Under the pieces are notes generated by a model. That model ran no database searches. It worked only from the letters and a program-made list of their open reading frames with translations, and was not told the origin of the DNA. The position numbers and the translations under genes were made by a program. A stretch of DNA of 64,000 nucleotides from positions 5,458,501 through 5,522,500 of the forward strand of contig AP031353.1 in NCBI GenBank assembly GCA_037833965.1, written 5' to 3'. The stretch's first letter is position 1; each line of letters starts with the position of its first letter. Positions 27,516-64,000 of this stretch are shown here, piece by piece. The DNA comes from Marchantia polymorpha subsp. ruderalis (taxonomy: Eukaryota > Streptophyta > Marchantiopsida > Marchantiales > Marchantiaceae).

Positions 27516-28276
27516 GACCTTGTTCTTTCCTTGACTGTGGATTACCCCTCATGGAATAGCAAGTGAGTGATGATGGAGTGTAGTCTTGAGAGTGTATAAA
27601 GGCTGGCAGAGGTCATTCATCTGCATGTAGAGAGAGGTGGAAGGGGGAAATTGTGTTTTTGCAGATATGGACGGGATTGACAGGAATCCAGTACCGCACT
27701 AGCCAATTCCTAACCTATTCGATATTCACCTTCGTTGCATGGAGAAACATCATTTTTGGATGTACCTTGTGGCTTGTTGGGGTGCAGATTTTATGACTAG
27801 AGTGATGGAGTCAAGAGTGCCACTGATTCTTCCAATAGTTACTTATGGAGAGACTTGGAATTGTACTATATACATTCTATACTGATTGTTTCATGGATTT
27901 GAATCGCGAACCACTTGTCTCGGTTCGATTCAGCACTTATGTAGAGATTAGAACAGTATATAGACAGAAGAGGATATGGAGAGATTTTCTTGTGAGGAAT
28001 TATGGAGAGGAGTACTATAGAGCTGTGATAGAGTCACCTGCACCTTTTGTGACTACTTTGTTGAGAGGTCACATAGTGATTATACTCACTTTGTATTAAA
28101 GGGATTGTGAGAAAGCCTGGGAACATCAATTGATATGGGTGAGGTTCTCAATGCAATCATGGCGGAGATGAAGGAGTTGAGAAAAGCAATAGTAGATGGG
28201 CATACCAAGCAGCAAGCCATGGAAGATAAAATCTTCGCATTAGAGAGTGAGAAAGTAGAGAGAGAGAGTTGGAGAG

Positions 28277-28866
28277 ATGGAAGTTGAACCTCAAGTTCAA
28301 GCTTCCCAAGTTCAGCCAGAACCAACTCCTATTGATGCAGCAGAGGCAAATAGGAGACGTCTTCAAGAGATTGAAGATCAAGCAAATCTTTTGCTTCGAA
28401 TGGGAAAATCCTGTAAGGTGGAAGCTTACAAAGGGAGTAGAGCAATGGGAGTGTTAGAGGGATGGATTATGAGGATGAATATTCATTTATCCCATTTTCA
28501 TGTTTTTGATTATATTGCAGGAATGTTCATGAGATCTTATCTTACGGATAAGGCTCTCACATGGTACACAACATGGGAGAAAATGCTTTCAGAACGAGGT
28601 GCTACCATTTCGTGGAGTGGAATGCAACAAGGACTTCTGCAAAATTTTCAAGCGGTGGATTCTCTTCAAACTGCAAGAATGAAGTTGTGGAATCTGAAGC
28701 AGAAAGGAGGTATTTATGAGTACATTGAAGAATTTCGTGATCTTCAAGTATCTATCATGGATATGAGTGGAGCTGAAGCCTTGGACGTGTTCAAACGAGG
28801 CTTGAAAGATCGAATTCGAAAGGAGGTGATGGTAAGCAATCCATCTACTGTGAATGAAGCAATCGC
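28277..28866 (+). pseudogene. gag part of the chromovirus (left of element C)
   Basis: The reading contains a retrotransposon gag domain: a FxG-like start, a segment around SYLTDKALTWYTTWEK, and LKQKGGIYEYIEEFRDLQ. This order is typical of plant chromovirus capsid. It ends at the AATTG target site of element C. The gag region continues on the other side of that insertion. Confidence 0.85.
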
Positions 28867-28871
28867 AATTG

Positions 28872-37000: not shown

Positions 37001-38847
37001 GATGTTTCTTGATCAGAAGTTGAGATGTCTGTGTCAACTTCTGAAAAGCTACCACTCTCTTCACTCTCAGATTCCCAATACTCGTCAGTTGGTCTATCTG
37101 AGTCAGTGGTGGATTCCCCTCCTCTCGTCAAAGGAACCTTAACTCGATGGTTCTTTGGGCCTATCCTCAAATAGCCCTTGTGCCATCGGTCCGTAGTCCT
37201 TACCGCCCTCAACCAAGGACGTCCCAACAGCAAGTCGTAGCTAGCTTCCTTGAGAATTTGGAAGGAAAGCAAAGTTTGCACTCCCCTCACACTAACCACA
37301 ACTTTGTCTACCACCCCCAGTGGTCTTACCTTCTGTTTGTTGGCCATACCAACAATTATGCTAGAAGGTCTAGAAGGTTGCATACCCAACTTCTGCATCA
37401 ACCTCTCAGACATGGCATTCACAGCCGATCCACCATCAACCAACACATCTGATACATCATGTCCATTGATCCTCACTTCGATCTTTGAAGCATGTGTACA
37501 TACCTCCGAAGCAGCCGCATCCACCACCCCAACTCCCACATTGGTCATGTGAGCCTTCCCCTTAGATTTCCGCTTCTTGGTCCTTGTGGAGATAAGACCT
37601 CCTCTTAACTCCTTCCGAATGGCTGGATTCAAGGCAATCAGCTGACCAACTGTTATATTGGCCTTCTGATTTCCTACATCCTCCACCACGTCATACTTAG
37701 CTTGAGAAGATGAAATGGAAAAGTCATCCATGCCCAACTTCTTCCTTGGTACTCTTGGTTGACTCACTCCACTTGACCGTGTACTTCGACTTGGCGTGTC
37801 CTCCATGAAAATCGACTCGTCCGCAAATCGGGCCCGCTTCTTCTCATGAGCAAGGATATCCACTTTCGATTTTGAGCTCTCCCCTTTCTCAAAAGTGCAT
37901 TGATGAGGGAATACATCAATGGATGCTACTCCCTTATCCTTGGCTTGTTGCGTGGCCGGTGCATTGTTGTTGTGCCGAACTCCATCATGTTGTCGAGGGT
38001 TAGGACAATTTCTCTGAAAATGAGGACCTCCACAAGAAAAGCAAGAAACCGCAAAGTTTCCTGAAGGTGGATTTCCTCTTGGAGGATAATTTCCATACCC
38101 CCTAGAGCCTCCTACTACGTTCTGATTCCTCTTCTCCCACAACTGTACTACATTGATCTTGAGATCTGCTAGAGTCTCCGTGATAGATTTCAACTCATTT
38201 TGAAAATCCACACTAGGATTCGCTATCGTGGATGAAGTAGAAGTGTTTGAAACAATAGACCTTCCTACAACCGGTGGAGCTACTTCTCTAGCCACCAAGC
38301 TAGAATCATCATCTTCTAAGCTCTCCTCCATTCTAATAGCAATTCGAATGGCTTCAGCCTTAGAAGAGGGCTTCTCGTATCTCACCTTACTTCGAATCTC
38401 TGGTCTCAAACCTCCAACGAAGTTCTTCATGAGCATCGCCCTTATCCCCACCATTGTAGCATCCACTTCGTCTCCGCCCTTCCTCAACACCACGTGGAAT
38501 CTAGATTCCAACTTCTCGGTTCTCTCCACATAGGTCCTCACCTTCTCGTTCTCTCCTTGTTTCAAGAAGGTGACCTCACACATCAACTTTTCATAACTTT
38601 CACTGGGAAGAAAGTTTTCGATCAGGTTCTCCGTTAATGTCTCCCACGTGTCGTCCTCCGAATGCTCCCTCTTGTACTCCTTGTACCACTTGAGAGCAGA
38701 ATCCTCCAAGAAATCCGGCAAAAGCATAGCCCACTCGTCTTTCTTCCTCTCATTGTTTCCTATGCAAGCCCTCTTGAAGTCCCTAACAAAAGCTTCTACA
38801 TCCTCATTCTCCCTCCCATAAAATACCGGAAGCTTCCCCATTTCCAA
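34075..38847 (-). CDS. Element E gag-pol polyprotein (1,590 aa)
   Basis: One uninterrupted frame. Residues about 1-160 are a retrotransposon gag domain (LKWYKEYKRE, FLPSESYEKL). A zinc knuckle CFSCGGPHFQRNC lies at 269-281, one residue shorter than the usual spacing. Protease motif VLVDGGSAVNAMS is near 469-481 and YDLLLGRPWL near 537-546. Reverse transcriptase spans about 700-930 with MPFGLCNAPATFQ and an FIDDF active site at 865-869. RNase H begins at FILYTDAS (about 1011). The integrase zinc region (HH-CC, about 1226-1268) is followed by the catalytic triad at about D1296, D1356 and E1392. The C-terminus ends soon after an SH3-like 'PKYFGPF' segment, with no chromodomain. The start is the first Met after an A-tract in the sense strand. 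A single fused gag-pol frame is common in plant Ty3 elements. Confidence 0.95.
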   Translation of the reverse strand: MEMGKLPVFYGRENEDVEAFVRDFKRACIGNNERKKDEWAMLLPDFLEDSALKWYKEYKREHSEDDTWETLTENLIENFLPSESYEKLMCEVTFLKQGENEKVRTYVERTEKLESRFHVVLRKGGDEVDATMVGIRAMLMKNFVGGLRPEIRSKVRYEKPSSKAEAIRIAIRMEESLEDDDSSLVAREVAPPVVGRSIVSNTSTSSTIANPSVDFQNELKSITETLADLKINVVQLWEKRNQNVVGGSRGYGNYPPRGNPPSGNFAVSCFSCGGPHFQRNCPNPRQHDGVRHNNNAPATQQAKDKGVASIDVFPHQCTFEKGESSKSKVDILAHEKKRARFADESIFMEDTPSRSTRSSGVSQPRVPRKKLGMDDFSISSSQAKYDVVEDVGNQKANITVGQLIALNPAIRKELRGGLISTRTKKRKSKGKAHMTNVGVGVVDAAASEVCTHASKIEVRINGHDVSDVLVDGGSAVNAMSERLMQKLGMQPSRPSSIIVGMANKQKVRPLGVVDKVVVSVRGVQTLLSFQILKEASYDLLLGRPWLRAVRTTDRWHKGYLRIGPKNHRVKVPLTRGGESTTDSDRPTDEYWESESEESGSFSEVDTDISTSDQETSSEYSSDDNVQVQVIAAMELLPRPGVKKDPDKVEMSEEEVCRRLSTLRFGPKVTKEEKAKFLDIFRKYIHVFAFSYKDLKHVTLETHRIELEEKARPIRQKQRRINPPTALVVKEEIDKLKEAGFIYEVENSEWVSPIVIVKKKNGKLRVCVDYKKLNAVTKKDYYPLPFIDEILEEVAGHEWYSFGDGYSGYNQIQIALEDQLKTTFTTPWGTFAFRVMPFGLCNAPATFQRFMNRVFEPFIGKFVRDFIDDFCVYGRKADHFDHLIKILQRLEEAKASLNPEKCIFGCEEGLLLGHIISKNGIAVDPEKVTRIMELPFPATLTKLRQFLGMVGYYRRFILSFSNKAHALTNYMKKGVEYELIFKDEAAKTAFEVLKKALVTAPILAKPDWGKPFILYTDASNIAVGCTLSQLDDEKHDHPIAYASRQMVQAEKNYSVTEREALAVIFSLKKFRHYLLGGRFTIVTDHKALKYIFNKPNAEGRIARWKLLLAEFDYTIEDRPGKKHANADLMSRAYDDGGDQSVDDTFPDEDLLVMDTVTTVPEEYKEIWDFISRGEFPQGMHQREKNALVKRCQPYMIMEKVLFHQGADGLLRRAVGRGEALQLMKEFHDGAVCGGHFAGKVTAFKILDAGYHWKGIFKDCVEYCKSCDVCQAFAKKSMKTPPMISVPVLGPFEKWGIDFVGPLNLTPRGNKFIVIATDYLTKWVEARPLKSTNEKEVGRFLYERIITRFGCPLELVSDRGGEFVGSMIQAMLEHFSIKARVTTSYKPNANGLAERTNYTLCMMLAKDADMDGSKHNWDKRLHAILWEYRTTWKTSTGYSPFRMVYGVESKLPIQFDLTTFTTIQQRLKKSNGAEAIKSRQQQLMELEEARALAMVRVERAQQLQKKYHDKRSGNQNLKPFKEGDWVMLFDAIRYKRARKKFLPKYFGPFIVEKVWGNFTYDIKELGGRHFDRVNHDKLKLFHRRSDSFTPRA

Positions 38848-41770: not shown

Positions 41771-44700
41771 CTACACGCCTGCACGGAACCACGCTACACT
41801 ACACTCCGCGGAACCTGTACTACGTCTCCTGCGCGGCCGACTGCCGCGCACTAACTCCCTACCCTGCCAATCTTCCGCTCGACTGCGCAGTCCCAAACGC
41901 TGCAACGCCGCGGACACCTCCACTTCGAGGGCGGACATGGTATCCTGTGCCTTCGACAGAAAGGCATCGAGCTTCTTTGCTACCTTCCGCCGACTCCTAC
42001 TGTCGCCTGACAACAACCCGGCTGCGCGTAATTCAAACTCACGCAGTGTGAGTTTCTCCTGCGCCTTCACTTCCCAGTGGGCGTAGCCCTTGAGACAGTG
42101 GGCGACACGCCTCGCCGTCTCCACCTTCGTGCGATCCGCCTCCTTCCTGCGATCCTCTTCAATTATCACTAATTGCGATTCGGCTTCAGCACGTTGCGCT
42201 CTCAATTCGCCACTCTCTGACTGTAACCTGCGGATTAACTCTTCATCCGCCTGCCGTGCGAGCTGACATTGTTCCAACAACCGCGTCTGTCGCACGAGCT
42301 CCTCTGACAAAATCCGATTCTGGGTCTGCTCAGAAATGAGTGCTTCCTTGACCTTCACCTGCTCCTTGGTGAGCTCGTCCAGTTTCTCATCCTTCATCTT
42401 CTCGGAGTGCTTGTAGAATTTCTGATTAAGCTTATACTGACCCCACAAGCATGCATGCTTCTCCTTCAATTCCCTCAACTCCTGGTCCACTCTAGCTAAT
42501 AGCTTGCTGGTGTGGACTTTAGTGCGAGTCCGCCTGCGCACTAACTCGATGTAAGATCCCGGCTGGAGTGGGTCGGCGTATTTATCGACCTTGCGATCCA
42601 AGTACCTCAGCAACGGAATCACCTGCTCAGAGAGCGCCGCCGCCGGCGCTCCAACAATTTCCTCCTCCTCCTCCTCGGTGTCTTCTGCTCTTGACATTTC
42701 TTCCGTGGAGCCTCCGTCGTCATCATCCGAGTGGAGAATTTCAGTCGCCATTGATTGCGTCGGCGACTGCCCCGAGTGGGGCTGCACGTCATCGACGTGT
42801 GCTGCCTGCGAAGGCACGGCTGCAGCCTCGCTGCTCGTCGCCAAAATGTCTAAGGCGGAAGGCGAATGTACCCGTGCGGCATCCCCGTCGCTCGCTTGTT
42901 GGTTGTCTACCGCGTCCTCTCTGCCGCCGTCGCCCGCCGCCGAAGGCGATCGAGCGGAGGGTGGCTGCGCGGAGTTTGATTGCGCATCGCGCATCGAAAT
43001 TTCATCCCGCGGACAGTCACTCCGCTCCTCCGTCTGTTGCTGCTCCCTTGATCGGTCCGTGGGGGCTGTGCCCGGCCCGTGCGCAGGCGCAATTGCCGGC
43101 GCCTTGTCCGCCGCAGGCGTAGCGCCGCGGACATCCATCGCCGAAGGCGACATGGCCGGGGGCCGCTCGCCCGATGTCCCTTGGCCTATAGGCCCTACCG
43201 CCGAAGGCGCATCTATCGGCGGACTTCCCGCCGATGGTGCGGCCTCCGCACGCTCCCTGCTCGTATCTCCTCGGCTCGAAGGCCCTGGCGCCGAAGGCGC
43301 GAATTGCGGCGCGTGGTGCGCCGGAGGGTCTGGCCCCGAGGGCCGGTGTCTCGTAGGCGGTTCTTCCGCCGGCTCCTTCCCCTTCCTACGTTGGAACGGG
43401 GGTGATTCTTGCCTGTGCACAGGCGGCACGTGTGGAGGTGTCCTGTGCACAGGCGACCTGTGCACAGGTGAGCGCCTGTGCACAGGCGGACTGCTCCTTC
43501 CCACGCGTAAGCGTAGATCCACGTCCACTTGTGATCGCCTGTCCGCGGAGGCTCGTCCGTCCGCGGAGGTTCGCCTGTGCGCAAACGGAACATCTGTCCG
43601 CATCGCACGTGGTAACTCCGGAGGCCCTTGGCCCGTAGGCGGCCTCTCTCCCGTCGAGGTTGCAGCGTGGCCCGTTGCTCCTGCGGTCGTCCGCGCTTCC
43701 TCATGCTTCTCTGGCGACGCACTTCCTTTCTCCGTCGCAATCGTCGCCGTGTCCGCACTGTCGGCTGGTAACACCAGTCTGCGTGCCTTCTGCTTCGGCC
43801 GGCTGTATGATTCGCACAGCGGCCGCGGTCGAATGGGAGCAGAGGGTTCTTGATGCTGCTCCTCTTCAGACTCTTCCCTCCATCGCCGCTTCCGCGGCAC
43901 TCGCGCTGCAGGAGTGTGTCTCCCTTCGTCCCTTCGCCTTGATGGGGTAGAAGTCGGTGACTCCTCTGCATCAGTGTCGACCTCATTCTCCCGCACATAC
44001 TTCCCGGGATGGTCGATGGACAATGGCGGAAAATGTTCAAGCTCCGCCGCTGTCAAACAATTCCGCTGTCGATAAAAATTGATGAGGAAAGGACAAAGAT
44101 GGTTTAGAGTCCCCCCCTTCTCCTCAAACGCGTGCTGTCGCATCACCCTGTGCAGGATGCTCGCCCAGTGAATTGGAGTTCCCTCGATGACGCACTCCAC
44201 AAAAGAGACCTGCCACAATGTGATGTAGCAGGCGCGGTGCGGCTGCAGTAATTGCATCAGCGCCGCGGACAAAGTCCGGCGAAATCGATCCTTGTAATCA
44301 CGGGTCCTGTACCCATTCTTGGTAGACCTCCCGGTCTTGAACAGCTCCACAAATTGCGCCTCTTCCTGCTTGGTCACCTTGATGCTCTCACTGTCGAAAA
44401 GGAGATGTCCTGGCATGCCAGCACATCTTCCCAACGCCTGCGCCCAATCTTGGACTGTCCACCGATCAACATGCGGACGCAATCCGCGCGAGGGTGGTCC
44501 CTGTGGCTCTAGCCACTCGCGCACCATATTCGCACAGATGTAGTTCCATCCCCATAGCAAGAAATCGAGCTTTCTTGCTATTAAGCGCTCCTCGAAAGCG
44601 CGCAGCCCGTTCTGTGGTAGGCGAAGTGGCACCATCCGCAATCTGCTCGGTCTCGTCATTGCGTTCCTGGGGTTCGTTCGCCCGCTCATTCTACTTCCGC

Positions 44701-44911
44701 ACCGCCCGAGCTTCTTTCTCTCTCGGCAAACTCTAATCGCCCTCAATTCCAAATCACGCGCATTCACTTCTCCCTCAATCAACAAGAAATCTCCTGTGCG
44801 ACGACGTCGAGAATGTTCCGCAGCCAGCAGATGGATGCGCGCAGCGCGCACAAGAGATTGGAATCGCGAATTCAAGAATGGGACGTTCTCCGCCGCCCGG
44901 TCGAAGGTCAT
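41771..44911 (-). CDS. A-D family protein, whole-looking copy in element D (1,046 aa)
   Basis: An open frame in three rough parts. Residues about 1-100 are basic. About 100-310 is the conserved core (LLWGWNYICANMVREWL, NGYRTRDYKDRFRRTL, ITLWQVSFVECVIEGTPIHW, LNHLCPFLINFYRQ), which recalls the 'putative plant transposon protein' domain. About 310-740 is Pro/Ser/Ala/Arg-rich low complexity in which PVHRR-, APSAEG- and PSAVG-like repeats are encoded by the short palindromes. About 740-1010 is a long Glu/Lys/Arg/Leu coiled coil (EELVRQTRLLEQ, ELRAQRAEAESQL), ending in a basic tail. No catalytic motif of a transposase, polymerase or nuclease is visible. It may be a structural or DNA-binding protein of a non-autonomous element. 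Copies A and B carry decayed versions. Confidence 0.8.
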   Translation of the reverse strand: MTFDRAAENVPFLNSRFQSLVRAARIHLLAAEHSRRRRTGDFLLIEGEVNARDLELRAIRVCRERKKLGRCGSRMSGRTNPRNAMTRPSRLRMVPLRLPQNGLRAFEERLIARKLDFLLWGWNYICANMVREWLEPQGPPSRGLRPHVDRWTVQDWAQALGRCAGMPGHLLFDSESIKVTKQEEAQFVELFKTGRSTKNGYRTRDYKDRFRRTLSAALMQLLQPHRACYITLWQVSFVECVIEGTPIHWASILHRVMRQHAFEEKGGTLNHLCPFLINFYRQRNCLTAAELEHFPPLSIDHPGKYVRENEVDTDAEESPTSTPSRRRDEGRHTPAARVPRKRRWREESEEEQHQEPSAPIRPRPLCESYSRPKQKARRLVLPADSADTATIATEKGSASPEKHEEARTTAGATGHAATSTGERPPTGQGPPELPRAMRTDVPFAHRRTSADGRASADRRSQVDVDLRLRVGRSSPPVHRRSPVHRSPVHRTPPHVPPVHRQESPPFQRRKGKEPAEEPPTRHRPSGPDPPAHHAPQFAPSAPGPSSRGDTSRERAEAAPSAGSPPIDAPSAVGPIGQGTSGERPPAMSPSAMDVRGATPAADKAPAIAPAHGPGTAPTDRSREQQQTEERSDCPRDEISMRDAQSNSAQPPSARSPSAAGDGGREDAVDNQQASDGDAARVHSPSALDILATSSEAAAVPSQAAHVDDVQPHSGQSPTQSMATEILHSDDDDGGSTEEMSRAEDTEEEEEEIVGAPAAALSEQVIPLLRYLDRKVDKYADPLQPGSYIELVRRRTRTKVHTSKLLARVDQELRELKEKHACLWGQYKLNQKFYKHSEKMKDEKLDELTKEQVKVKEALISEQTQNRILSEELVRQTRLLEQCQLARQADEELIRRLQSESGELRAQRAEAESQLVIIEEDRRKEADRTKVETARRVAHCLKGYAHWEVKAQEKLTLREFELRAAGLLSGDSRSRRKVAKKLDAFLSKAQDTMSALEVEVSAALQRLGLRSRAEDWQGRELVRGSRPRRRRSTGSAECSVAWFRAGV
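43411..43488 (-). repeat. In-frame palindrome cluster inside the element D gene
   Basis: Four palindromes of the CCTGTGCACAGG type in under 80 bp, the last a perfect CGCCTGTGCACAGGCG at 43473-43488. They encode the PVHRRSPVHRSPVHR segment. In element A the equivalent codons are built from CGCCTACGCATAGGCG instead. Confidence 0.85.
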
Positions 44912-45059
44912 GGTCGGCTCTTGCTCGTGAAGAACGTCTCACTTGATGGCCGCGCCGGCTGTACGCTGGAACGGTCTTCGCTCTCACGCGCGGCTTCACG
45001 CTCCGCCGTCGTCGATTAAACTCTCACGCTCGAATTGGCGGGTTTGAACTCCGCGAGCG

Positions 45060-46010
45060 TATTACCCCGCGGACATGGGGGCGTAGCGCCGAAGGCGAGT
45101 TTTCCGCCTTGCGCGGTACACTTGTTCGTACCGCCCCTCGGCCAATCCCCCTTTGCCTTGACGCGTGTGTCCGCATGTCGGACAAAAGTTCAACTCCTGC
45201 CTGTGCGCAGGCAGGAGCCTCGGCGGATTCTCCGCCGGCGCGGAACTTGAACATCCTCCTGTGCACAGGCGTCCGCCTGTGCGCAGGCGAATTCCGTGCG
45301 CGGCGCTGCGCTGGCGCGGAAGGCGTTGACCGTGGTCAGCCGTCTCCGTCCAGTCTGTCCGTTCCTTGTCTCTTCGTCGGCGCTTCCGCCGCCGCAACTC
45401 CGTCCGTCCAAGAGCGCATCCACCCTTCCCGTCCGCATGGTCCGTACCGATTTGATTACTCTGGCGGCTCTTCCGCCGTACGCGGCGCGGTGCTGGCGCG
45501 GAAGGCGCCGTACACTTTCTACCTCACAAGGCGCATTTCTAGGGCCCAAGGCGGATTTCCCGCCGACGCCGAAGCGCCTGTGCACAGGCGACCTGTGCGT
45601 AGGCGGACTTCGCGCCTCCCCTAACCCTACTTCGCCTGTGCGCAGGCGAACGCCTTCGTCCGCGCATAGGACAAAACTTGATTCCCCCTTCCGCCGTAGG
45701 CGGAATTCGCGCCGGTGGCGAACTCCTTCCGCCGTAGGCGACCGCCTCCGTTTCTTCCAATAGTGATAACTCCCTAAGTCCTCATCCGTTCCAAGCGTTC
45801 TTGGACTCGTTGGAATCGGTGCGTCGAGCTCTTTCCAACGGGACCCTAACTTGGTCAAGGCGCCCGAGGGTTGACCTAATTATGGAGGGTTTCCCTACAG
45901 CCGCGGACGCAACCTCCGAAGGCGGGTTTTGCGCCTTGCGTCGTAGGGGTCCTAACTGCAGAGCTCGCAGGGAGGGTGGTGCCTGTCCTTACTGCTGCAC
46001 CCCAAATCCC
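45060..46010 (-). repeat. Palindrome-rich leader of element D
   Basis: Palindromes of the TGTGCACA or TGTGCGCA type occur near 45.20, 45.26, 45.29, 45.58 and 45.65 kb, with GCCGAAGGCG-type 11-mers. One copy of the CTCGTTGGAA/CTTTCCAACG unit lies at about 45.80-45.85 kb. A stretch at about 45493-45580 is nearly identical to element C at about 31.15-31.24 kb. Confidence 0.8.
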
Positions 46011-46161
46011 AGATTCTACAATATCCCTCGAGAATCCCCGCGATCTTCCGGATTCACTCCGTTTTGATGTACCGAAGGCTATTTACAATGCTGCCAGGGT
46101 ACAGTTTTCCAAAAATGTTTTAATTTCCTCAAAATTGCCAAAAGTGGTGTACCACATTGTG

Positions 46162-48006
46162 ATGGGTACAGCATCCATTTCTAGAGATGATGTATGTTTC
46201 CTTGGAGTTATAAGAGATATTGGGTCCACGGACAAACCTTACATCCCGGAGTCCTTGAACGACATTTTTATGGAGTATAAAGATGTTTTTCCAGATGATC
46301 TACCTGCAGGATTACCACCAAAGAGGCGAGTAGATCACAAGATTGAGGTGATACCTGGAAGTACAACAACTTGCAAAGCTCCATATCGTTTGGCTCCAAA
46401 CGAATTGGAAGAATGCAAAGCTCAAGTGGAGGAGATGTTGAGCAAGGGATTCATTCAACCAAGTGTTTCACCTTATGGAGCTCCAGTACTCTTTGTGAAG
46501 AAGAAGGATGGATCCATGAGACTATGTATCGATTATCGCGGGTTGAATCAGCAAACGGTGAAAAACAAATATCCATTACCTCGTATGGATGATTTGTTTG
46601 ATCAACTTCAAGGAGCGAAGTACTTCACCAAGCTAGATTTGAGAAGCGGCTACAATCAAATTCGAATTGCAGATGAAGATGTTCACAAGACAGCTTTTCG
46701 TACTAGGTATGGACACTTTGAGTATCTGGTGATGCCTTTTGGTCTCACTAATGCACCAGCTACATTCATGGGATTGATGAACGATATCTTTCGCCTTTAT
46801 CTAGATAAATCTGTCATTGTTTTTCTAGATGATATATTGCTGTATAGCAAAACTTTGAGTGATCATAGAAGTCATTTACGAGAGGTTCTTCAAGTTTTAA
46901 GAGACAATCAATTGTATGCCAAAGCTTCAAAATGTGAATTTGGCAAGTCAGAAGTAGATTACTTGGGTCATAGAGTTACAGCTACAAGAATCCAAGTGAT
47001 GAGTGAGAAGATAGATGCCATTCAGAAATGGATAGCACCTGAGGATCAAACTCAATTGAAAAGTTTTCTAGGGCTCACTGGATTCTATCGTAGATTTGTG
47101 AAAGGTTTTGCTCGACTAGCTCAGGCCTTGACTTCCATGTTAGGGAAAGGTCAAAAGTGGAGATGGGGAACAGCTCAAGAGTTAGCTTTTCAAGCATTGA
47201 AAGATGCTTTGTTACACACACCTATTCTCAAGTGGTATGATCCTAACCGTTCTATCAAGTTGGCCACTGACGCATCAGGTACAACAGTAGGTGGCATACT
47301 TCAACAAGAATGGGAGGATGGATGGCATCCAGTTGCTTTGTATTCTCGAAAGTTGGTGGCGGCGGAACAAAATTATCACACGACAGAACGAGAGGAGTTA
47401 GCTATCGTGTTGGCAACCAAACATTGGAAGCATTATTTGGGTGATAAGGAGTTTGTGGTGGAGACTGATCATAAACCCTTGGTTTATTTGGAAACTCAGA
47501 AGGATCTGTCCAAACGACAAATTCGATGGGCAAAGTGGCGTCAACGCTTCAACATGAAGATTGTGTACGTGGATGGAAAGAAGCAACTTGCAGATGCTCT
47601 CACACGCATGCCTTGTTTGAATCATGTTGCAGAAGTGAAAATTCAGGCGGATTGGTGGAGCAAGATGTCACAAGCCACAAAGGAGGATGAAGAGATCACT
47701 CGGGCACTACAAACTGGAAAGGCAGAGAAATCTCGAGGTTTGGCGTTTTACAATCAGCGTATATGGATTCCACAAGATCACGATTTGCGCACAATGATTT
47801 TGGCAGAAAGTCATGATACAGCCATTGCAGGTCATGTGGGAGTGGAGAAAACCGTGGAGAGTATACAACGAGTGTACTATTGGCCCAAAATACGTGAGGA
47901 TGTGGAGTCTTATGTTCGAAGTTGTGTTGCTTGTCAACAAAACAAGGCAAGTAATCAAAAACCAGCGGGTTTATTAAAGCCTTTTGCTATTCCCGAACAG
48001 TGGTGA
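46162..48006 (+). pseudogene. Chromovirus pol part: reverse transcriptase, RNase H, integrase zinc region
   Basis: The reading starts right of element D and contains [33 protein letters not shown], the active site FLDDILLYS, RNase [17 protein letters not shown] and VVETDHKPL, and the integrase zinc region ending CVACQQNK. This is the normal domain order of a plant chromovirus. The stretch is long and well preserved. Confidence 0.9.
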
Positions 48007-48018
48007 GAACATGTCACC

Positions 48019-49101
48019 ATGGATCTTGTATGTGAGTTACCAAGGACTTCGTTAGGACATGATTCAATGGTGGTTTTTGTGGACAAATTGAGCATGATGA
48101 TTCACATCAGGCCAACCACAAAAACAGTAACAGCTCCACAACTAGCTCAATTGTATCTAGATGCAGTTTTTGTGAATCATGGCTTAAGCAAAGTGTTAAT
48201 CACGGATAGAGGTACTCACTTCACTAGTTTATTTTGGAAAACTTTGTTTAGTTTTTTCAAAACAAAACTAGCAATGTCAACGGCCTATCATCCTCAAACT
48301 AATGGACAAACTGAGAGGGCAAATAGAACCATAGAGGATATGCTACGAGCATTCACATTAGAAGAGCAAGAAGAGTGGGACAACCTTTTGCCACTTGTGG
48401 AATTTGCATATAACAATTTTGTTAATGCATCCACAAAAGTGTCTCCATTTTTTCTTATGTATGGAGCTCATCCGATAACTCCTTCAAGTTTGATGAGACT
48501 TTCCAAAGGAGAGGAGTTTTCGACCAAAGTTGCAGCAGTCAACGAATTCGTGGAGCATATTCACCGAGGACTACATCAGGCCAAGGAGAAGTTGGTGATA
48601 GCTCAAAATCGGCAAAAGCAGCATGCCGATGCTCATCGTAGAGAAGTGATTTTTGAGGTTGGAGATCATGTTTGGTTATCTACAACGAATTTGTCTCTTG
48701 TAGGAACACCAAAGTTAAACCCTAGGTTCATTGGTCCATTTTTGGTTTTGAAGCGTGTTGGTGAAGTGTCATACAAGTTGGAACTTCCGTCACATATGAA
48801 AATACATCCAATATTTCATGTGTCACGATTGCGAAAACATGTACCACGACCAAAACAATTCACCAACCAACCAGCACCACCTCCTCTTCCAACCTTGATA
48901 GCAGATCATGAGGAGTTTGAGGTAGAAAAGATACTCAAGAAACGAATTCGAGGTCATAAATATCCCAAAGTAGAGTATTTGATTCAATGGAAAGGCTATC
49001 CATCGTATGAATCAACTTGGGAACCAGCTAAAAATTTAGCAAATGCACCTTTGATAGTTCAGGAGTTTGAACGTATGTGCAACGAGAACGTTGCATCTTA
49101 A
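48019..49101 (+). pseudogene. Chromovirus integrase core and chromodomain
   Basis: The integrase core shows [24 protein letters not shown] and [21 protein letters not shown]-type segment ([12 protein letters not shown]) follows. The C-terminus is a chromodomain: [29 protein letters not shown]. Chromodomains at this place are known to steer chromovirus integration to heterochromatin marked by histone H3 methylation. Confidence 0.92.
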
Positions 49102-52739: not shown

Positions 52740-54250
52740 GTTGGTGTGATGGTTAGGGGGCACAAGGTGCGGAAGGGGGCCTTCGGGGCAAGGTCTTCGG
52801 CGAAGTGCCTTCGGTGAAGTTCCTTCGGAAAAGGCCTTCGGCGAAGAAGTGAAACTCTCATAACGTTTTCAATGTGTGACGTCTTGACTCAGTTAGGGTC
52901 TTGTTGGAAAGAACTCGCGACGCTCGTTCCAACAAAACCAAGAACTCTTGAAACGGTCAAGGCATCACCGAGTTAGGAGCGGCTGAAGTTTCTGATATGG
53001 AGGGCCTTCGGCAGGTTGCGCGTAGACGGCCTGTGCATAGGCAAACGCCTTCGGCGGAAGGAGTTCGCATCCGCCGGGGATTCCGCCTACGCAAAAGTGA
53101 GTTCGACTTTTGTCCGATGCGCGGACGAACGCCTTCGGCGGTTGCAGGCCTTCGGCGGAAGGGTAAAACCGGCATAACGTTTTCAATTCTTAACGGTTTG
53201 CATTGGTAAGGGTCTCGTTGAAAAGGGCTCGACACGCTCGTTCTAACGAGCCCAAGAACGCTTAGAACGGATGAGGACTTAGGGAGTTATGACTATCCAA
53301 AATACGCAGACGTTCGCCTTCGGCGGAAGGAGTTCGCCTCCGCCGGGGATTCCGCCTACGCAGAAGGGAGTTCGACTTTTGTCCTATGCGCGGACAAACG
53401 CCTTCGGCGGTTACAGGCCTTCGGCGGAAGGGTAAAACCGGCATAACGTTTTCCATTCTTAACGGTTTGCGTTGGTTAGGGTCTCGTTGGAAAGGGCTCG
53501 ACACGCTCGTTCTAACAAGCCCAATAACGCTTGGAACGGATGAGGACTTAGGGAGTTATATCTATCGAAAGATACGTAGACGTTTGCCTTTGGCAGAAGG
53601 AGTTCGCCTCTGCCGAGGATTCCGCATACGCAGAAGTGAGTTCGACTTTTGTCCTATGTGCGGACGAACGCCTTCGGCGGTTGCAGGCCTTCGGCGAAGC
53701 AATAAAACCGGCATATCTTTTTCAATTCTTAGCGGTTTGACTTGATTCGGGTATCATTGGAAAGAACTCAACGCGCTGGTTCCAACGAAACCAAGATCTC
53801 TTGAAACGGATCAGTCATCATTGAGTTATGAGCGTCGAAAGCGGCTGTCATGGTTAGGCGAGAGGCCTTCGGCGTTAACATATAGAGGGGCCTTCGGCCC
53901 AAGGCGGCCTGCGCATAGGCACGCTGTGCATAGGCGGCCTGCACGTAGGCGGCCTGCGTGTAGGACGCCTGTGCAGAGGCAAACGCCTTTGGCAGAAGAG
54001 TAAAACCGTCATAACTTTTCTCAATTCTTATCGGTTTGACTTAGTTAGGGGCTCGTTGGAAAGAGCACAACACGCTTGTTCCAACGAGCCCAAGAACGTT
54101 TCAAACGAAGCAGGGATCCGTGAGTTATGGGCGTCGGGGTGACTGTTATAGATAGGCAAAGGTGCGGAAGAGTGTCTTCGGTGGTGCGCGGAAGAAGATT
54201 TCGGACGGCGGATGTTGACGTGGTCATAAATAAAGACTGTATAGGTGTGG
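52740..54250 (+). repeat. Five-unit array related to the A-D family leader
   Basis: Units of about 265-320 bp begin near 52.89, 53.21, 53.47, 53.75 and 54.05 kb. Each has GGTCTCGTTGGAAAG, a GCG core, and CGTTC.AACGAGCCCAAGAACG, so that CTCGTTGGAA and TTCCAACGAG can pair. AACGGATGAGGACTTAGGGA and palindrome filler (CGCCTTCGGCGG) follow. It is the plus-orientation counterpart of 30.35-31.87 kb in element C, and the similarity continues through about 54.25 kb (GTGGTAGTGGCGGC). I found neither family terminus, so I call it a fragment of a C-like element. Confidence 0.7.
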
Positions 54251-54562: not shown

Positions 54563-55165
54563 AGAATCGTATCTGAGAGTGAAATTAGATTGGAATTCAA
54601 GATTGAAGTGTAATCTGTGAGTGAGATTTGAGATCAGAGTGGAAGACCTGAGAGTGGGATTCGAGATTGAAGTGTAATCTGTGAGTGAGATCTGAGATCA
54701 GAGTGGAAGACCTGAGAGTGGGATTCGAGATTGAAGTGTAATCTGTGAGTCGTATCTGAGAGTGAAATTAGATTGGGATTCAAGATTGAAGTGTAATCTG
54801 TGAGTGAGATCTGAGATCAGAGTGGTTGACCTGAGAGTGGGATTCGAGATTGAAGTGTAATCTGTGAGTGAGATCTGAGATCAGAGTGGTTGACCTGAGA
54901 GTGGGATTCGAGATTGAAGTGTAATCTGTGAGTCGTATCTGAGAGTGAAATTAGATTGGGATTCAAGATTGAAGTGTAATCTGTGAGTGAGATCTGAGAT
55001 CAGAGTGGAAGACCTGAGAGTGAAATTCGAGATTGAAGTGTGATCTGTGAGTGGGAGCTGAGATTGAAGTGTAATCTGTGAGTGGGATCTGAGATTGAAG
55101 TGTAATCTGTGAGTGGGATCTGAGATCCGAGTGGAAGATCTGTGAATGGGAGCTGAGAGTGAAGT
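54563..55165 (+). repeat. Minisatellite with higher-order structure (64/64/55 bp)
   Basis: Units begin GATTGAAGTGTAATCTGTGA. A 64-bp form occurs twice and is followed by a 55-bp form (with GTCGTATCTGAGAGTGAAAT). This triplet of about 183 bp is repeated at least twice, then decays into shorter units to the right. Such order implies unequal exchange of triplets. Confidence 0.85.
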
Positions 55166-55329
55166 GAAATCTGAGACTGAAATCTGACAGTCGGGATCTG
55201 AATTTGAAACTGAAAAGGGAGAGTGGAATCTGAGAGAGTAATCTGGTGGGGTTTGAAGGTGGAAACTAAGAAATTGACACTGAAATCTGAGTAGGAATTG
55301 GGAGTGGAACTCAAAGCTAGGATAGACCA

Positions 55330-57540: not shown

Positions 57541-57577
57541 GTGAGGTACTCACTTCACTAGTTTATTTTGGAAAACT

Positions 57578-58400
57578 TTGTTTAGTTTTTTCAAAACAAA
57601 ACTAGTAATGTCAACGGCTTATTATTCTCAAAATGATGGACAAACGGAGAGAGCAAATGAAACCATAGAAGATATGCTACGAGCATTCACTTTAGAAGAG
57701 CAAGAAGAGTGGAACAAACTTTTGCCACTTATGAAATTTGCATATAACAATTTTGTTAATGCATCCACAAAAGTGTGTCCATTTTACCTCATGTATGAAG
57801 CTCATCCTATATTACCTTCAAGTTTGATGCAACTTCTCAAAGGAGAAGAGTTTTTGACCAAAGTTGCAGTAGTTAACGAGTTTGTGGAGCATGGTCTCCG
57901 AGGACTACATCAGGTCGAGGAAAAGTTGATGATAGCTCAAAATTGGCAAAAATTGCATGATGATGTTCATTTTAGAGAAGTGGTTTTTGAGATAGGAGAT
58001 AATGTTTGGTTATCTAAAATGAATTTGTCTCTTGTGGGAACACCAAAGTTGAATCCTAGGTTCATTGGTCCATTTTTTGTTTTGAAACGTGTTGGTGAAA
58101 TGTCATACAAGTTGGAATTTCCGTCGCATATGGAAATACATCCGGTATTTTATGTGTCACGATTGCAAAAATATGTAACATGACCAAAACAATTCATCAA
58201 CCAACCAGCATCAACTCCTCTTCCAACCTTGATAGCAGATCATGAGGAGTTTGAGGTAGATAAGATACTCAAGAAGTATATTCGAGGTCATAAATATCCC
58301 AAAGTAGAATATTTCATTCAATGGAAAGTATATCCATCATATGAATCAATTGGAACCAGCTAAAAATATAGCAAATGCACATTTGATAGTTCAGGAGGTT
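57578..58400 (+). pseudogene. Integrase and chromodomain remnant
   Basis: Reads the second half of an integrase core and the GPF segment, followed by recognisable but damaged chromodomain sequence (EEFEVDKIL). A short part of the downstream region appears twice (about 58.35 and 58.43 kb; AACCAGCTAAAAAT, AAATGCACATTTGATAGTTC), a small local duplication. Confidence 0.8.
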
Positions 58401-59490: not shown

Positions 59491-59608
59491 AGTGAAGGTT
59501 GTCGTGCGAATACATATCGCCATACACTCTACATCGCTGACATGCTACTCACATACACATACGCACACACATACACACATATAAGGCGCGAGAGAGTACA
59601 CACTCAAA
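59491..59608 (-). repeat. 118-bp direct repeat, copy 1, near the end of element H
   Basis: The GTCGTGCGAATACATATCGCC...GCGAGAGAGTACACACTCAA block is nearly identical to 59911-60029. It holds a CACATATAAGGCGCGAGAG segment that in the minus orientation gives a TATA-like CTTATATG. Confidence 0.85.
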
Positions 59609-59910
59609 TGTCACAACTAAAATAAACGGGAGATTCCACACTTGAATTCCCGTCGGTCAATTACCCTACTGGCAACAAACCGTCACCGTCACAAACATGA
59701 GTCAAGCCCAACCCACTCCACACTCGGAGAATCCAAGTCGACGCAAAGGGGAAAGTCGCTCTACGCTCCCAACGCTTTCAGGCTCGACTTGAAGAACTAA
59801 CTTTCTTCGAGCCGTCCCCGACTGTATACCCCTCGTGATCCGAACCCTAACTCCACGTCTAAATATAGTAAGTGCCCAGCCTGCGTGAGCCGACGCGAAA
59901 CTACATGACA

Positions 59911-60029
59911 GCTGTCGTGCGAATACATATCGCCATACACTCTACATCGCTAACATGCTACTCACATACACATACGCACACACATACACACATATAAGGC
60001 GCGAGAGAGTACACACTCAAATGCCACAA
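59911..60029 (-). repeat. 118-bp direct repeat, copy 2; probable LTR edge of element H
   Basis: The partner of 59491-59608, about 420 bp away. Immediately to its right, 60031-60040 reads in sense AGGGGGGCGA, a good polypurine tract. The repeat edge at about 60028 (TGTGGCATTTGAG in sense) is therefore probably the start of the 3' LTR of element H. The second copy may reflect a duplicated LTR edge or an LTR of about 420 bp followed by another. Confidence 0.55.
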
Positions 60030-60189
60030 CTCGCCCCCCTAGCTGGCGGTCAGGTCCCTCTGACTCCCAGGTAGCCCTATCTACAACTACATGCTATACA
60101 CCTTCGTGGGTGCGCAAACCAGTAGGCCGGGTGCTATGTCGCCCCATCGTTAGTCGCCTATGTGCAATTCATAACATGTGAAGATCAAG

Positions 60190-60335
60190 TCATCTACTCC
60201 TCTAAAGTACATTGAGGACAAACCCATCGTCCAGCCGGAATAACATCGATAGGCGGAGTTAGGCACGACATGTGTCATCCCCTAGAGCACCTATCACACA
60301 CCAACATACGGGCCGCCTGACCAGCTGACCCACAC
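60190..60335 (-). pseudogene. PHD-finger-like module at the integrase C-terminus of element H
   Basis: Cysteine pairs CMLC and CDRC, separated by a short basic and hydrophobic stretch, are followed within the next 30 codons by His and Cys residues in the spacing of a C4HC3 PHD finger and a last CPQC pair. PHD fingers bind histone H3 tails. The position is equivalent to that of the chromodomain in chromoviruses, which suggests an alternative chromatin-reading module. The similarity is by eye only. Confidence 0.6.
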
Positions 60336-61267
60336 AGCATGCACCTCAAGCCAGCACGTAAGATCGCTAAGCTTGGGTTCATAGTGCCATCTACGTTTGG
60401 GAGGTGGCATGGCGCACAATTGCGCACATGATCCTTCCAAACAACGCCGTCACGACCCTCCAACAAGAGAACTCCAGAAGGTAACACCTCCCACACTCGC
60501 AAGATTGTGCGTCCCACCGTCACATCCAATGTCGTCGGTGCAGTTTGCTGTAGATAGACGTAGTCTCCCACATGGAATCTACGAATCGATGGTCGATAAC
60601 CTCCTCCCCAAATGGTTGCATATCGCAATGTGACTCTATGTTGAGCAATCGCAAGATTCTCAAACGCTACAGGCATAACTCTTCGAAAGAGCTCTGCACG
60701 TTGAGAACATACTCTTACCCACATATTCGAGTCATCAAGGTTCACCACCTCGCTAGACTCACGACGAATCGATGTTGGCAAGTCTGGATCTCGGCCGTAC
60801 AATAGAAAATATGGTGAGAAGGAAGCCAAGGATGCTTGACGACTGAACCGGTATCCCATGGCCAACCACGGAAGTTGGATATCCCACTCCCCAAGATGAC
60901 CTTTCTGTAGGCCATACTTGCGCAACGCCCTCTTCACCGTCTGTACAACACGTTCAGCCAAACCATCTGCCTCTTGATGAATTCGCGACGTGGTCCGATG
61001 ATCAATGAGCGCCTTGTCACACAAGACCTGAAACTCACCCTGAATCTCTGTCCCTTGATCTGTCAACACCTCAGCTGGTGCACCATAGTGACTAAGCACC
61101 CTGTCAAGGAAAGCATATGCTACTCCCTCACTTGCCTTGTCAGGTAATGCCAACAACTCAATCCACTTGGAGAAATGCTCTACCATGACCAACACATACC
61201 GATGATGTCGTACATTCAAAGGTAGTGGTCCAGCAAAGTCCAAACTCCAACGGTAACCCAACCCCAT
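60336..61267 (-). pseudogene. Element H integrase core
   Basis: The reading has WSLDFAGPLPLNVRHHRYVLV, the segment FSKWIELLALPDKASE, LTDQGTEIQGEFQ and ADGLAERVVQTVKRALRK. The catalytic Asp, Asp and Glu are therefore present in the usual Ty3 context. An SH3-like tail (RRFHVGDYVYLQQ) follows, and then the PHD-like cluster. Confidence 0.85.
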
Positions 61268-61273
61268 GATGGG

Positions 61274-62332
61274 TTATGGATGTAACACTAGTGTCGGGGC
61301 ATTGAATGATGCCCTCATCCGATCACAAACCATGCAACGTGATACCAACTGCTGTACCTGAGTATGCATATCACGCCACCAATACTGATCAAGAAGTAAG
61401 CTATATGTACGCTTCACTCCAAAATGTCCCAACTCCTCATGAGCATGCCTCACAATGCGTGCTCTCTGAGCTGGGTGTGGTACTACTCGTACCCTACCGT
61501 CCTCCCAGACTCGGAGAACATGTGATCCCTCCAATCGGTATCTTTTCGCCCGTTGGAGAACACAATCTCGCTCCTTGGCACCCACTGTGCCTGGCACTAT
61601 GCTGGTTCGTAGGAACTCCAACACCAATGCATCATCGTGAACATCACGCTGATCCACACCACCATCCTCAACCTCAGGATCTGAAGATCGACCATCTACT
61701 CTCTGACTAGAGTAAGATGTCAGATGATTCTCTCTGCTTGAGTTTCCACATAACCAACACATGAAGGCAGATGCATGCCAACCAGGCACCATCTCCTTGT
61801 CAACCTCACCATGCCATCTAGCTCTAGTGTCATTCTCCTGGCTAGTGCATGGATTTTGACTCAAACCATCGGCATCCAGGTTCGCAACTCCATGTCTATG
61901 CACTACCTGAAAATCGTACTCCTGTAAGATCAGAGCCCACCGTGCAAGCTTCCTTGTGAGCTTGTCAGACTCCATCAACCACTTGAGCGGCTGATGATCA
62001 GTAACAAGGGTGAACTGCGTACCAAACAAGTAACACTTGAAGTATGCCACAGCCCACACCGCTGCCAAGCACTCTCCCTCGTACGAACTATACCGCGACT
62101 CCGCTGCATTGTTCGAACGACTAGCGTACGCAACCACAAACTCCTTGCCCTCATCATCACGCTGCGTCAACACCGCTCCAAGTCCCAACATACTCCAATC
62201 AGTGTGCAACAGATATGGACGACCTCTAATAGGTCTCTTCAAGGTGAGAGCAGCCACCAATCTGGCCTTGAGCTCAACAAAAGCTCTCTCCTGCTCATCT
62301 CTCCATTGCCACTTCTGATCTGTCTTCTGCAA
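61274..62332 (-). pseudogene. Element H RNase H and integrase zinc region
   Basis: RNase H landmarks are YLLHTDWSMLGLGAVLTQ, AYASRSNNAAESRYSSYEGE and LVTDHQPLKWLM. They are followed by HRHGVANLDADGLSQNP and, after a linker, an integrase HH-CC zinc region (HEELGHFGVKRTYSLL, CMVCDRMR). This is the order of Ty3/gypsy pol. Confidence 0.88.
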
Positions 62333-62545
62333 CTAGTTCAAAGGCTTGGCTATAGCACTAAACCCCTTCACATACCTAAGGTAGTAGTTCGCCAAACCCA
62401 TAAATGCACAAACTCTACTCAAATCTGTGAGACAAGGGATGCGTGCAATAGCCTCCACCTTTGCTTGCTGAACTTTTAAACCACTCACCAAATCAACGCG
62501 AAAACGGCGTTGCTCCGCCAAATCCGAGCTCACAATCCACGTCAA
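62333..62545 (-). pseudogene. Element H RT connection segment after the methyltransferase
   Basis: KVEAIARIPCLTDLSRV, then FMGLANYYLRYVKGFS, is the hallmark segment between the RT palm and RNase H in Ty3 elements (compare 'FLGL.GYYRRFV'). It lies directly downstream of the methyltransferase end. Confidence 0.75.
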
Positions 62546-63849
62546 GCAGTTCAAGTCCATAGCTTGACCCAAAACCTAACGACGCGAAGCCTCTGAAACT
62601 GTAGCAACTGCGGTGACACCAGTCATAAATCCCATCGCACGCTCTCTCTCATCAGCGTTGGGCTCCACCAACTAATGTACTGTACTGTCCCACAGTAGTC
62701 CAGGTCCATCATCACAATATGCATGTGATGCTAGATAACTGACAAATGTAGGTAAAGCCATCCGAGGCTGACCTACGCGGTTCACCTTCGCCATAGGTGA
62801 CCTGTCAGCAACTCTCACTACCTGAGAGTGTCGGAAAACATCCAAGATACTGTCAACGGTGAGTGTAGGATCACGCTGCACAGAATCATAGGCATGACGC
62901 AATATCTCACGTGGCAAAAGGTTGGTCCACCATAAACGTGCACGATGAGCCCGTGATCCAACCCTCGCAGCATCCAACAGTACTGCTGATCCAATCCATG
63001 CTCGGACCTGATGAACACTCGCCATCAACTGGGCCCGAGTGTCACCTAACAATGGTACGTTCTCCAAATGTATGTTGGAGAACGTGTCTGCTGCACTTGG
63101 AGATGACGTAACACTCTCATCATCTCCCAAAACATCTGAGATCTGGGATCATGCAACCGTGTCCCATGTCCAGCGCGTGTGTGTCCCTTACATGGCCAGC
63201 CCGCAATCACTATATCAATATGGCCAACGCGGTCAAGGTATGGCGCCCCCAGCAACGAAATGTCTGAAGGCAACGCCTTCTGGAATCCTCGGACAGCTGA
63301 TCGCGGCAATAACGAAGGAAAAAGCCGCATCAACTGTGCAACATGTCGTGAAGAGACTCGACGTGCAGTCTCGTTCTTCTCCACATACAAGTATCTCCGT
63401 ACGAGAATACCTGACTGCAACACCGCAGCCAAACCTGTGCTGATCCCACCAAAAAGATCCAGCAAACAAACACCCTCTGGGGAATACTCCCATGCAATAG
63501 GTGTAGTAACTAATGGAGACAATGCGCTAGAACCACCAACTAGCCGATCAACTGAAGCCCTCTCTGGCTCTGCTGGTAAAGAGGCTTCGCTCCAAGCCTT
63601 CTTCACCAACCTATGAGCCTCCACCTGGAGTGTCTGACAAGAACTCCACAGTGGAACATCTAAGTGTGAAGTCACCGCCGCTGTGAAACTCACAACCTCC
63701 TCCACATCCTCGTAGACTGAGGTATCGTCGACAGACATGTTCTCATCCAACAAGTCATCAGGCCAAGTAAGCACTCCGCTGAAACCCGCAACGGATGCTA
63801 AGACCGCACACGAAGATCCAAGAGGTCGATCTCGAGAAATAAATCTCAC
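62546..63849 (-). pseudogene. C5 cytosine DNA methyltransferase domain carried by element H
   Basis: The motifs of the family appear in canonical order. Motif I LLDLFGGISTGL is near 63.43-63.47 kb. Motif II is YVEKN. Motif IV GWPCKGHTRAG carries the catalytic Pro-Cys pair near 63.19 kb. Motif VI ENVP is near 63.06 kb. A motif VIII-like AHRARLWW is followed by a target-recognition stretch, and a motif X-like LGQAMDLN lies near the end. The enzyme would transfer a methyl group from S-adenosylmethionine to cytosine C5. The domain is embedded in the pol region between a protease-like segment and the RT connection. An N-terminal acidic region (about 63.6-63.8 kb) is unassigned. The copy is broken. 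Confidence 0.85.
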
Positions 63850-64000
63850 TGGCAGCTCGCTAAGACGTCCATCGCCAGACTGCCAACCAGAACGATAGGC
63901 AGCAGTCTCCGTTCAATAGTCCATCCGAAAACCCATCGGATATAACACAGCTCCACCAACAAGCACATCATATGACTCAACTGATGTAACCACCGCAGGG
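63850..64000 (-). pseudogene. Protease-like segment of element H at the window edge
   Basis: On the minus strand, SYDVLVGGAVLYPMGF resembles the 'YDVILG...L' second landmark of retroelement aspartic proteases and runs toward the methyltransferase. It is cut by the end of the window. Confidence 0.5.

Follow-up and report, generated by a model that had tools for sequence, protein, structure and literature searches.

DNA methylation is one of the chief ways in which hosts silence transposons, and elements that carry a cytosine DNA methyltransferase (MTase) of their own are therefore a paradox. In the literature examined, such elements have so far been described from two algal lineages, the dinoflagellates and the charophytes (PMC5890265), as the original prediction for the locus studied here had stated. 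Among published elements, KnitGypsy-Dnmt3 from the charophyte Klebsormidium nitens comes nearest to the one reported here (de Mendoza et al. 2018, PMC5890265). A survey from 2025 again named streptophytes and dinoflagellates, citing the same work and terming the long terminal repeat (LTR) elements Copia (PMC12344493), and Morozov et al. wrote in 2019 that land plants lack transposons bearing a methylase (PMC6338049). Here, we analyzed a stretch of 64,000 nucleotides (nt) from the liverwort Marchantia polymorpha subsp. ruderalis (contig AP031353.1, positions 5,458,501 to 5,522,500), called the window throughout, which contains a decayed Ty3/Gypsy pol region with a C5 MTase. This region is almost certainly a dead member of a multicopy Ty3/Gypsy family of bryophytes, one that carries a DNMT3-type MTase.

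The pol region occupies the minus strand from 64000 to about 60197. Its features, including the open reading frames (ORFs) and the remnant of the reverse transcriptase (RT), all lie on that strand and are listed below with lengths in amino acids (aa); P0177 and P0182 are related proteins that are described further below.

63928 to 63996, minus strand: C-terminal tail of a retropepsin, motif V-L-V-G-G-A-V-L-Y-P at 63966-63928, collinear tblastn match of P0177 from residue 706
63912-63046, minus strand: ORF from stop to stop, 288 aa
63046 to 63912, minus strand: first piece of the DNMT3-type C5 MTase, with an N-terminal spacer, motif I at 63471-63430 and motif IV (W-P-C) at 63210-63184
63148-62672, minus strand: ORF from stop to stop in a different frame, 158 aa
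62672 to 63067, minus strand: second piece of the MTase in the other frame, motif VI (E-N-V) at 63064-63041 and motif VIII at 62956-62918
62537 to 62650, minus strand: MTase motifs IX-X (E-R-E-R-A-M-G-F ... L-G-Q-A-M-D-L-N-C-L-T-W), spanning in-frame stops, third profile match with 26 bits
62575-62333, 62332-61274 and 61273-60275, minus strand: further ORFs from stop to stop
62336 to 62482, minus strand: RT remnant (thumb/connection; motif coordinates 62482-62360); P0182 aligns from residue 923 onward to 62482-61511
61511 to 62332, minus strand: RNase H (Pfam RT_RNaseH and RT_RNaseH_2, 1.6e-35 and 2.7e-29; motif coordinates 62209-61979) and the linker after it
61310 to 61474, minus strand: zinc-binding H2C2 domain of the integrase (Pfam Integrase_H2C2, 6.6e-16; motif at 61447-61316)
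60947 to 61255, minus strand: integrase core (Pfam rve, 1.3e-12; motifs at 61249-60947)
60197 to 60349, minus strand: PHD finger (C4HC3) at the integrase C-terminus, read as C-x2-C ... C-x2-C ... H-x2-C ... C-x2-C, with one stop inside

The Pfam gathering score was passed by DNA_methylase (E 5.1e-6, 26.6 bits against a gathering score of 22), RNase H, H2C2, and rve, and neither the 158-aa MTase piece nor the 80-aa RT remnant matched a Pfam family up to E 1. When relatives were used as tblastn queries, collinear matches were obtained in the order protease tail, MTase, RT remnant, RNase H, integrase, and PHD finger, with one frame change near 63067. Residues 695-922 of P0182, about 228 residues that comprise a linker and the RT core, were unmatched between 62534 and 62482, and the MTase adjoins RNase H in this copy because they are missing. 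Because of the frame change, several in-frame stops, and the missing RT core, the window copy is dead and cannot be active. The domain order is that of Ty3/Gypsy elements: RNase H is followed by integrase in the window, and protease and RT by RNase H in P0182. The PHD finger, which the original prediction had not mentioned, gave a partial Pfam match in the window (E 0.62), and the aligned stretch of the Marchantia protein P0127 is a PHD finger at 4.4e-9. The integrase ORF of the window gave no chromodomain match up to E 1, and P0127 gave none up to 0.01; the PHD finger takes its place. Scans of the window for tRNAs and Rfam families gave no matches.

The original prediction had described C5 MTase motifs in order within a retroelement pol region, next to RT connection, RNase H, and integrase, and both descriptions held, with motifs I, IV, VI, VIII, and IX-X located. 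Its protease-like segment was confirmed as the retropepsin tail, whereas the active site is expected about 0.2 kb past 64000, outside the window, from the comparison with P0177. The placement of the MTase between protease and RNase H is true of the window copy, but in intact relatives the enzyme is flanked by protease and RT.

Recognition of the MTase is not a matter of chance. Against a profile derived from 19 relatives outside Marchantia, the first window piece scored 221 bits and the ORF with the second piece 195 bits, compared with 6.2 bits for the best of 1000 shuffled pieces, and a chance match was rejected on these values. Only three of the 772 window segments of at least 40 aa exceeded 5 bits on this profile, and all three lie within the MTase.

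The MTase is classed as DNMT3-type from its motif order, profile comparisons, and predicted fold. Its motifs run I-IV-VI-VIII-X, that is, non-rearranged, in the window as well as in the relatives. The profile and the predicted structure drew on a selection of 42 proteins out of the 213 fetched. By profile, DNMT3A was reached at 2.2e-19, and DNMT3A/3B were the closest among the solved C5 MTases; they also formed the top Foldseek and VIA rows for the predicted fold. DNMT2 reached 7e-4. No chain named DNMT1 was found within E 10 in the profile comparison, an absence that is not proof against an origin from DNMT1 or CMT. A DRM origin was rejected, as the DRM order, with motifs VI-X before I-IV, is not that of the element and DRM aligns over motifs I-IV only. 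A phylogeny had been proposed in the original prediction, and in a tree of 27 of 36 MTase stretches (at least 270 aa), with long reference branches and without plant DNMT3 or CMT, a split with 99/97 support sets the element MTases, DNMT3A, and DRM apart from DNMT1 and M.HhaI. This tree gives no resolved single clade of element MTases apart from DNMT3A and DRM. The window piece nests within a Marchantia clade of element MTases.

The window copy is one of many. With the first MTase piece as query, 113 proteins were found at E <= 0.001, which by their names comprise 33 Marchantia polymorpha gene models, two Sphagnum proteins (S. tenellum and S. balticum), two proteins of Calypogeia fissa, and 76 without an organism name; the 33 Marchantia rows come from several assemblies, and some represent the same locus. 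A profile search yielded 475 proteins, and the 120 matches listed added S. troendelagicum and further Calypogeia proteins. A third search (49 proteins) added S. jensenii and long Marchantia models, and 213 proteins were fetched in total. The relatives therefore come from Calypogeia, a liverwort, from four Sphagnum species, and from environmental contigs, and the suggestion that the lineage reaches land plants is supported. Judged by their Mp_ names, pieces of the family are located on Marchantia chromosomes 1, 3, 4, 5, 6, 7, 8, and V, some of them without an MTase.

Several relatives carry the linked domains in a single protein. P0177 (Mp_4g09160, 1278 aa) contains a CCHC motif at residue 334, the protease motif L-D-S-G-A-Q-P at 637, and MTase motifs I at 885, IV, VI, VIII, and X at 1181. 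P0182 (1190 aa) combines protease, MTase, RT (RVT_1, 1.8e-23), and RNase H (2.6e-33), and P0127 combines an MTase fragment with the integrase C-terminus and the PHD finger. Protease and MTase motifs also occur together in single Marchantia models whose names point to chromosomes 4, 6, and 8, in Calypogeia P0121, and in S. troendelagicum P0118, S. jensenii P0192 (with motif X), and S. balticum P0104; S. tenellum P0034 begins downstream of the protease. The gag CCHC motif and the retropepsin are known from the relatives only, mainly by motif, and a Pfam aspartyl protease match (E 0.001) was obtained for one of the 13 members scanned. When models and window are combined, the full family order reads gag-CCHC, protease, MTase, RT, RNase H, integrase, and PHD finger, an architecture assembled from separate gene models, in which exons may have been skipped or joined and none of which spans the whole element.

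Eleven environmental relatives (P0117, P0123, P0132, P0134, P0136, P0140, P0143, P0157, P0161, P0174, and P0188) are divergent, with about 40-50% identity to the query, and two of them, P0134 and P0188, also carry the protease motif; their hosts are possibly other mosses or algae. Metagenome entries labelled site-specific DNA-cytosine methylase (e.g., P0041, P0046, and P0055) are fragments of this retroelement family. Such entries are probably plant retroelements and not bacterial genes, and P0041 groups with S. troendelagicum in a second MTase tree. In this tree, from which eight divergent environmental rows had been dropped beforehand and Calypogeia P0121 (less than 205 aa) fell out, Marchantia clusters with Sphagnum-like rows to the exclusion of Calypogeia (96/92); the approximately unbiased (AU) test of the liverworts grouping together gave p 0.034. 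This grouping may reflect ancient paralogues or host switching and is too weak for a claim of horizontal transfer. When viral contigs were scanned with P0001, two pattern matches were obtained, neither of which was confirmed.

The MTase is well conserved within the family. Compared with P0177, its identity amounts to 78% for Calypogeia P0114, 74% for S. troendelagicum P0118, and 53% for P0134; the respective values are 45%, 55%, and 33% for the spacer just upstream of it and 74% (over 54 aa), 73%, and 44% for the protease. Thirteen comparisons with P0177 were made, and in all 11 that had at least 243 aa of MTase aligned, the MTase was the most identical region. Both W-P-C and A-H-R-x-R were retained in 29 of the 36 proteins that have motifs I, VI, and VIII in order. 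This pattern, which is one of protein-level identity and not of Ka/Ks, argues for selection on the enzyme.

DNMT3 enzymes carry out de novo methylation of double-stranded DNA, and chromovirus chromodomains are thought to steer or anchor insertion. We propose that the MTase would be made within the polyprotein, freed by the element protease, and carried in the particle. Given its position between protease and RT and a protease to release it, the enzyme would be packaged with RT and would be the first to meet the cDNA. It would then introduce 5-methylcytosine de novo into the double-stranded cDNA of its own element, either ahead of integration or during it, and new copies would land already methylated. 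The PHD finger sits where the chromodomain of chromoviruses does; on the integrase, it probably reads a histone tail during integration, and it would thereby steer or anchor insertion. Methylation of cDNA was proposed for the dinoflagellate DIRS elements, and the SymbioDIRS-Dnmt3 MTases showed CG de novo methylation in yeast (PMC5890265). For self-methylation of the element cDNA, in which packaging, DNA substrate, timing, and PHD target are all inferred, our confidence stays slightly below an even chance, and the identity of the element and self-methylation, taken jointly, form a reading that we regard as somewhat probable. It is rather unlikely that a bryophyte-wide lineage unites a writer, the DNMT3-type MTase, and a reader, the PHD finger, in one polyprotein that pre-methylates its cDNA and chooses its landing sites. 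On this reading, the lineage may also have passed from one host to another that is only distantly related.

A number of observations weigh against an enzyme kept for self-methylation. In three of the 11 comparisons, the MTase was nearly tied with protease or gag (74 v 73%, 98 v 97%, and 87 v 84%). Two of the 13 compared proteins, P0205 and P0211, are gag-protease proteins whose sequence stops close to motif I or ahead of it, so that hardly any MTase or none could be aligned, and may represent a relative that lacks the MTase. W-P-C is missing from three of the 36 proteins, four have A-H-H in place of A-H-R, and at least four proteins of the 213 fetched show an altered motif IV. The KnitGypsy-Dnmt3 MTase was inactive in a yeast assay, a result that its authors term inconclusive (PMC5890265). 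Other Gypsy elements in the window do without such an enzyme, and no MTase match was found in those at 38847-34078 (minus strand) and 45880-49098 (plus strand). The observed/expected ratio of CpG is 0.73 in this copy, versus a window mean of 0.87 and 0.52-0.57 in the blocks that hold another Gypsy element; because the copy lies above these blocks, it bears no special signature, and CpG depletion was set aside as a mark of self-methylation.

The enzyme could instead have the target site, or host chromatin close to it, as its substrate, with PHD finger and MTase together choosing and marking the landing site and hiding the insertion in silent chromatin. The fusion of the PHD finger to the integrase C-terminus fits this idea, and animal DNMT3 enzymes likewise couple an H3-reading domain to the MTase, but the MTase sits between protease and RT, away from the integrase, and we consider this explanation unlikely. 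A substrate of RNA, either element RNA or the tRNA primer, or a role as a non-catalytic DNA-binding module would agree with the inactivity of the Klebsormidium MTase in yeast (PMC5890265). Yet the best matches in both profile and fold are the DNA enzymes DNMT3A/3B, with DNMT2 far behind at 7e-4, and the catalytic motifs are mostly kept, which leaves this option improbable.

Morozov et al. (2019) suggested that retrotransposon MTases are maintained for the protection they give the host against DNA viruses (PMC6338049). This proposal leans on the absence of such elements from land plants, which the bryophyte copies contradict, and we give it very little credence. As worded in 2019, the absence from land plants does not hold for bryophytes, judged from the sequences collected here, although the authors may have meant mainly tracheophytes. 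Least credible of all is a chance neighbourhood, in which a host DNMT3, DRM, or CMT gene or pseudogene came to lie beside a Gypsy fragment. The window copy by itself, broken and in two frames, would allow it, and the original prediction had named two outcomes that would overturn it, a grouping with host DRM or CMT genes as a chance neighbour or a lack of other genomic copies linked to the pol region. What was found is a motif order other than that of DRM, and protease and MTase within one protein in Marchantia, Calypogeia, and Sphagnum, to which P0182 adds RT and RNase H; the linked copies in other gene models refute a chance neighbourhood.

In Marchantia, the element may be the sole source of DNMT3-type de novo methylation. 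The host MTases reported are MET, two CMTs, and two DRMs, with no DNMT3 among these five (PMC5784723), and a review mentions two DNMT3-type enzymes where it describes bryophytes (PMC8566409), which is at odds with the element as sole source.

Downstream of the PHD finger, between 60031 and 59493, lies a repeat-gap-repeat arrangement:

59906 to 60031, minus strand: direct repeat copy 1, candidate B1 of a DIRS-like end, 126 nt, 96% identical to 59493-59618 (98.3% over 119 nt)
59619 to 59905, minus strand: stretch between the repeats, candidate A2, 287 nt
59493 to 59618, minus strand: direct repeat copy 2, candidate B2

As for LTRs, only these 126-nt direct repeats were found, and the 5' end of the element lies outside the window. 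The arrangement resembles the B1-A2-B2 end of the DIRS-like order A-coding-B-A-B and is compatible with it; A1 would be expected upstream of gag, beyond 64000, and the repeat may also have another origin. The 287-nt stretch has no second copy within the window.

Elsewhere in the window, an uninterrupted Gypsy ORF of 1590 aa at 34078-38847 (minus strand) encodes gag, aspartyl protease, RT, RNase H, and integrase and is possibly a young intact element. A chromovirus pol at 45880-49098 (plus strand) comprises, in two ORFs, RT, RNase H, H2C2, integrase, SH3, and chromodomain. Other Gypsy fragments, with a Ty3-type capsid/gag and an integrase C-terminus, lie at 28259-28873 and 57545-58183 (plus strand). 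An open frame of 1055 aa at 41774-44938 (minus strand; G+C about 60%) is accompanied by long overlapping frames on the opposite strand and has no Pfam match at E 1e-4. Tandem arrays occur at 53046-53811 (269-nt unit, 2.8 copies) and 54567-55187 (64/183-nt array). Positions 4001-6000 are very A+T-rich (23% GC), and the rest of the window has 28-62% GC per 2 kb.

A multicopy family of this kind is now available in Marchantia, a standard genetic model, with relatives in the liverwort Calypogeia and in the peat mosses of the genus Sphagnum, and the purpose of element-borne MTases becomes testable in a transformable land plant. Among the matches listed in a search of open-licence PubMed Central, no description of MTase-bearing retrotransposons in bryophytes was found.

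KnitGypsy-Dnmt3 is an LTR Gypsy, and the Marchantia element shares with it a Gypsy Pol ORF that contains a DNMT3-type MTase of non-rearranged motif order, with catalytic residues kept. A figure legend describes the KnitGypsy-Dnmt3 repeats as DIRS-like (PMC5890265), and the repeat-gap-repeat of the window is compatible with this. The likeness is one of architecture, as no Klebsormidium name occurs among the matches listed (120 of 475). The two differ in the bryophyte host and in the PHD finger after the integrase; the words PHD and chromodomain are absent from the main text of PMC5890265, to which this statement is limited, and KnitGypsy-Dnmt3 may carry a PHD finger too. SymbioDIRS-Dnmt3 and SymbioLINE-Dnmt of Symbiodinium are likewise retrotransposons with cytosine MTases, of DNMT3 type in the DIRS case, but they are DIRS elements with a tyrosine recombinase, or LINEs, and not Gypsy elements with a DDE integrase (PMC5890265). 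Chromoviruses, such as that at 45880-49098, end their integrase with a chromodomain, whereas the MTase element has a PHD finger and an MTase. A PHD finger C-terminal to a Gypsy-type integrase or transposase is also known from one Hydra family of the Ginger1 elements, which, however, are cut-and-paste DNA transposons without RT or MTase (PMC2836005). An orchid Gypsy with an AlkB-like m6A demethylase ORF is a further plant Gypsy element that captured a nucleic acid-modifying enzyme, but there the enzyme is an RNA demethylase in an additional ORF and not a DNA methyltransferase (PMC9289625). By these comparisons of domain content, the new element is a bryophyte member of the known, rare DNMT3-bearing Gypsy elements, with the PHD finger as a further feature.

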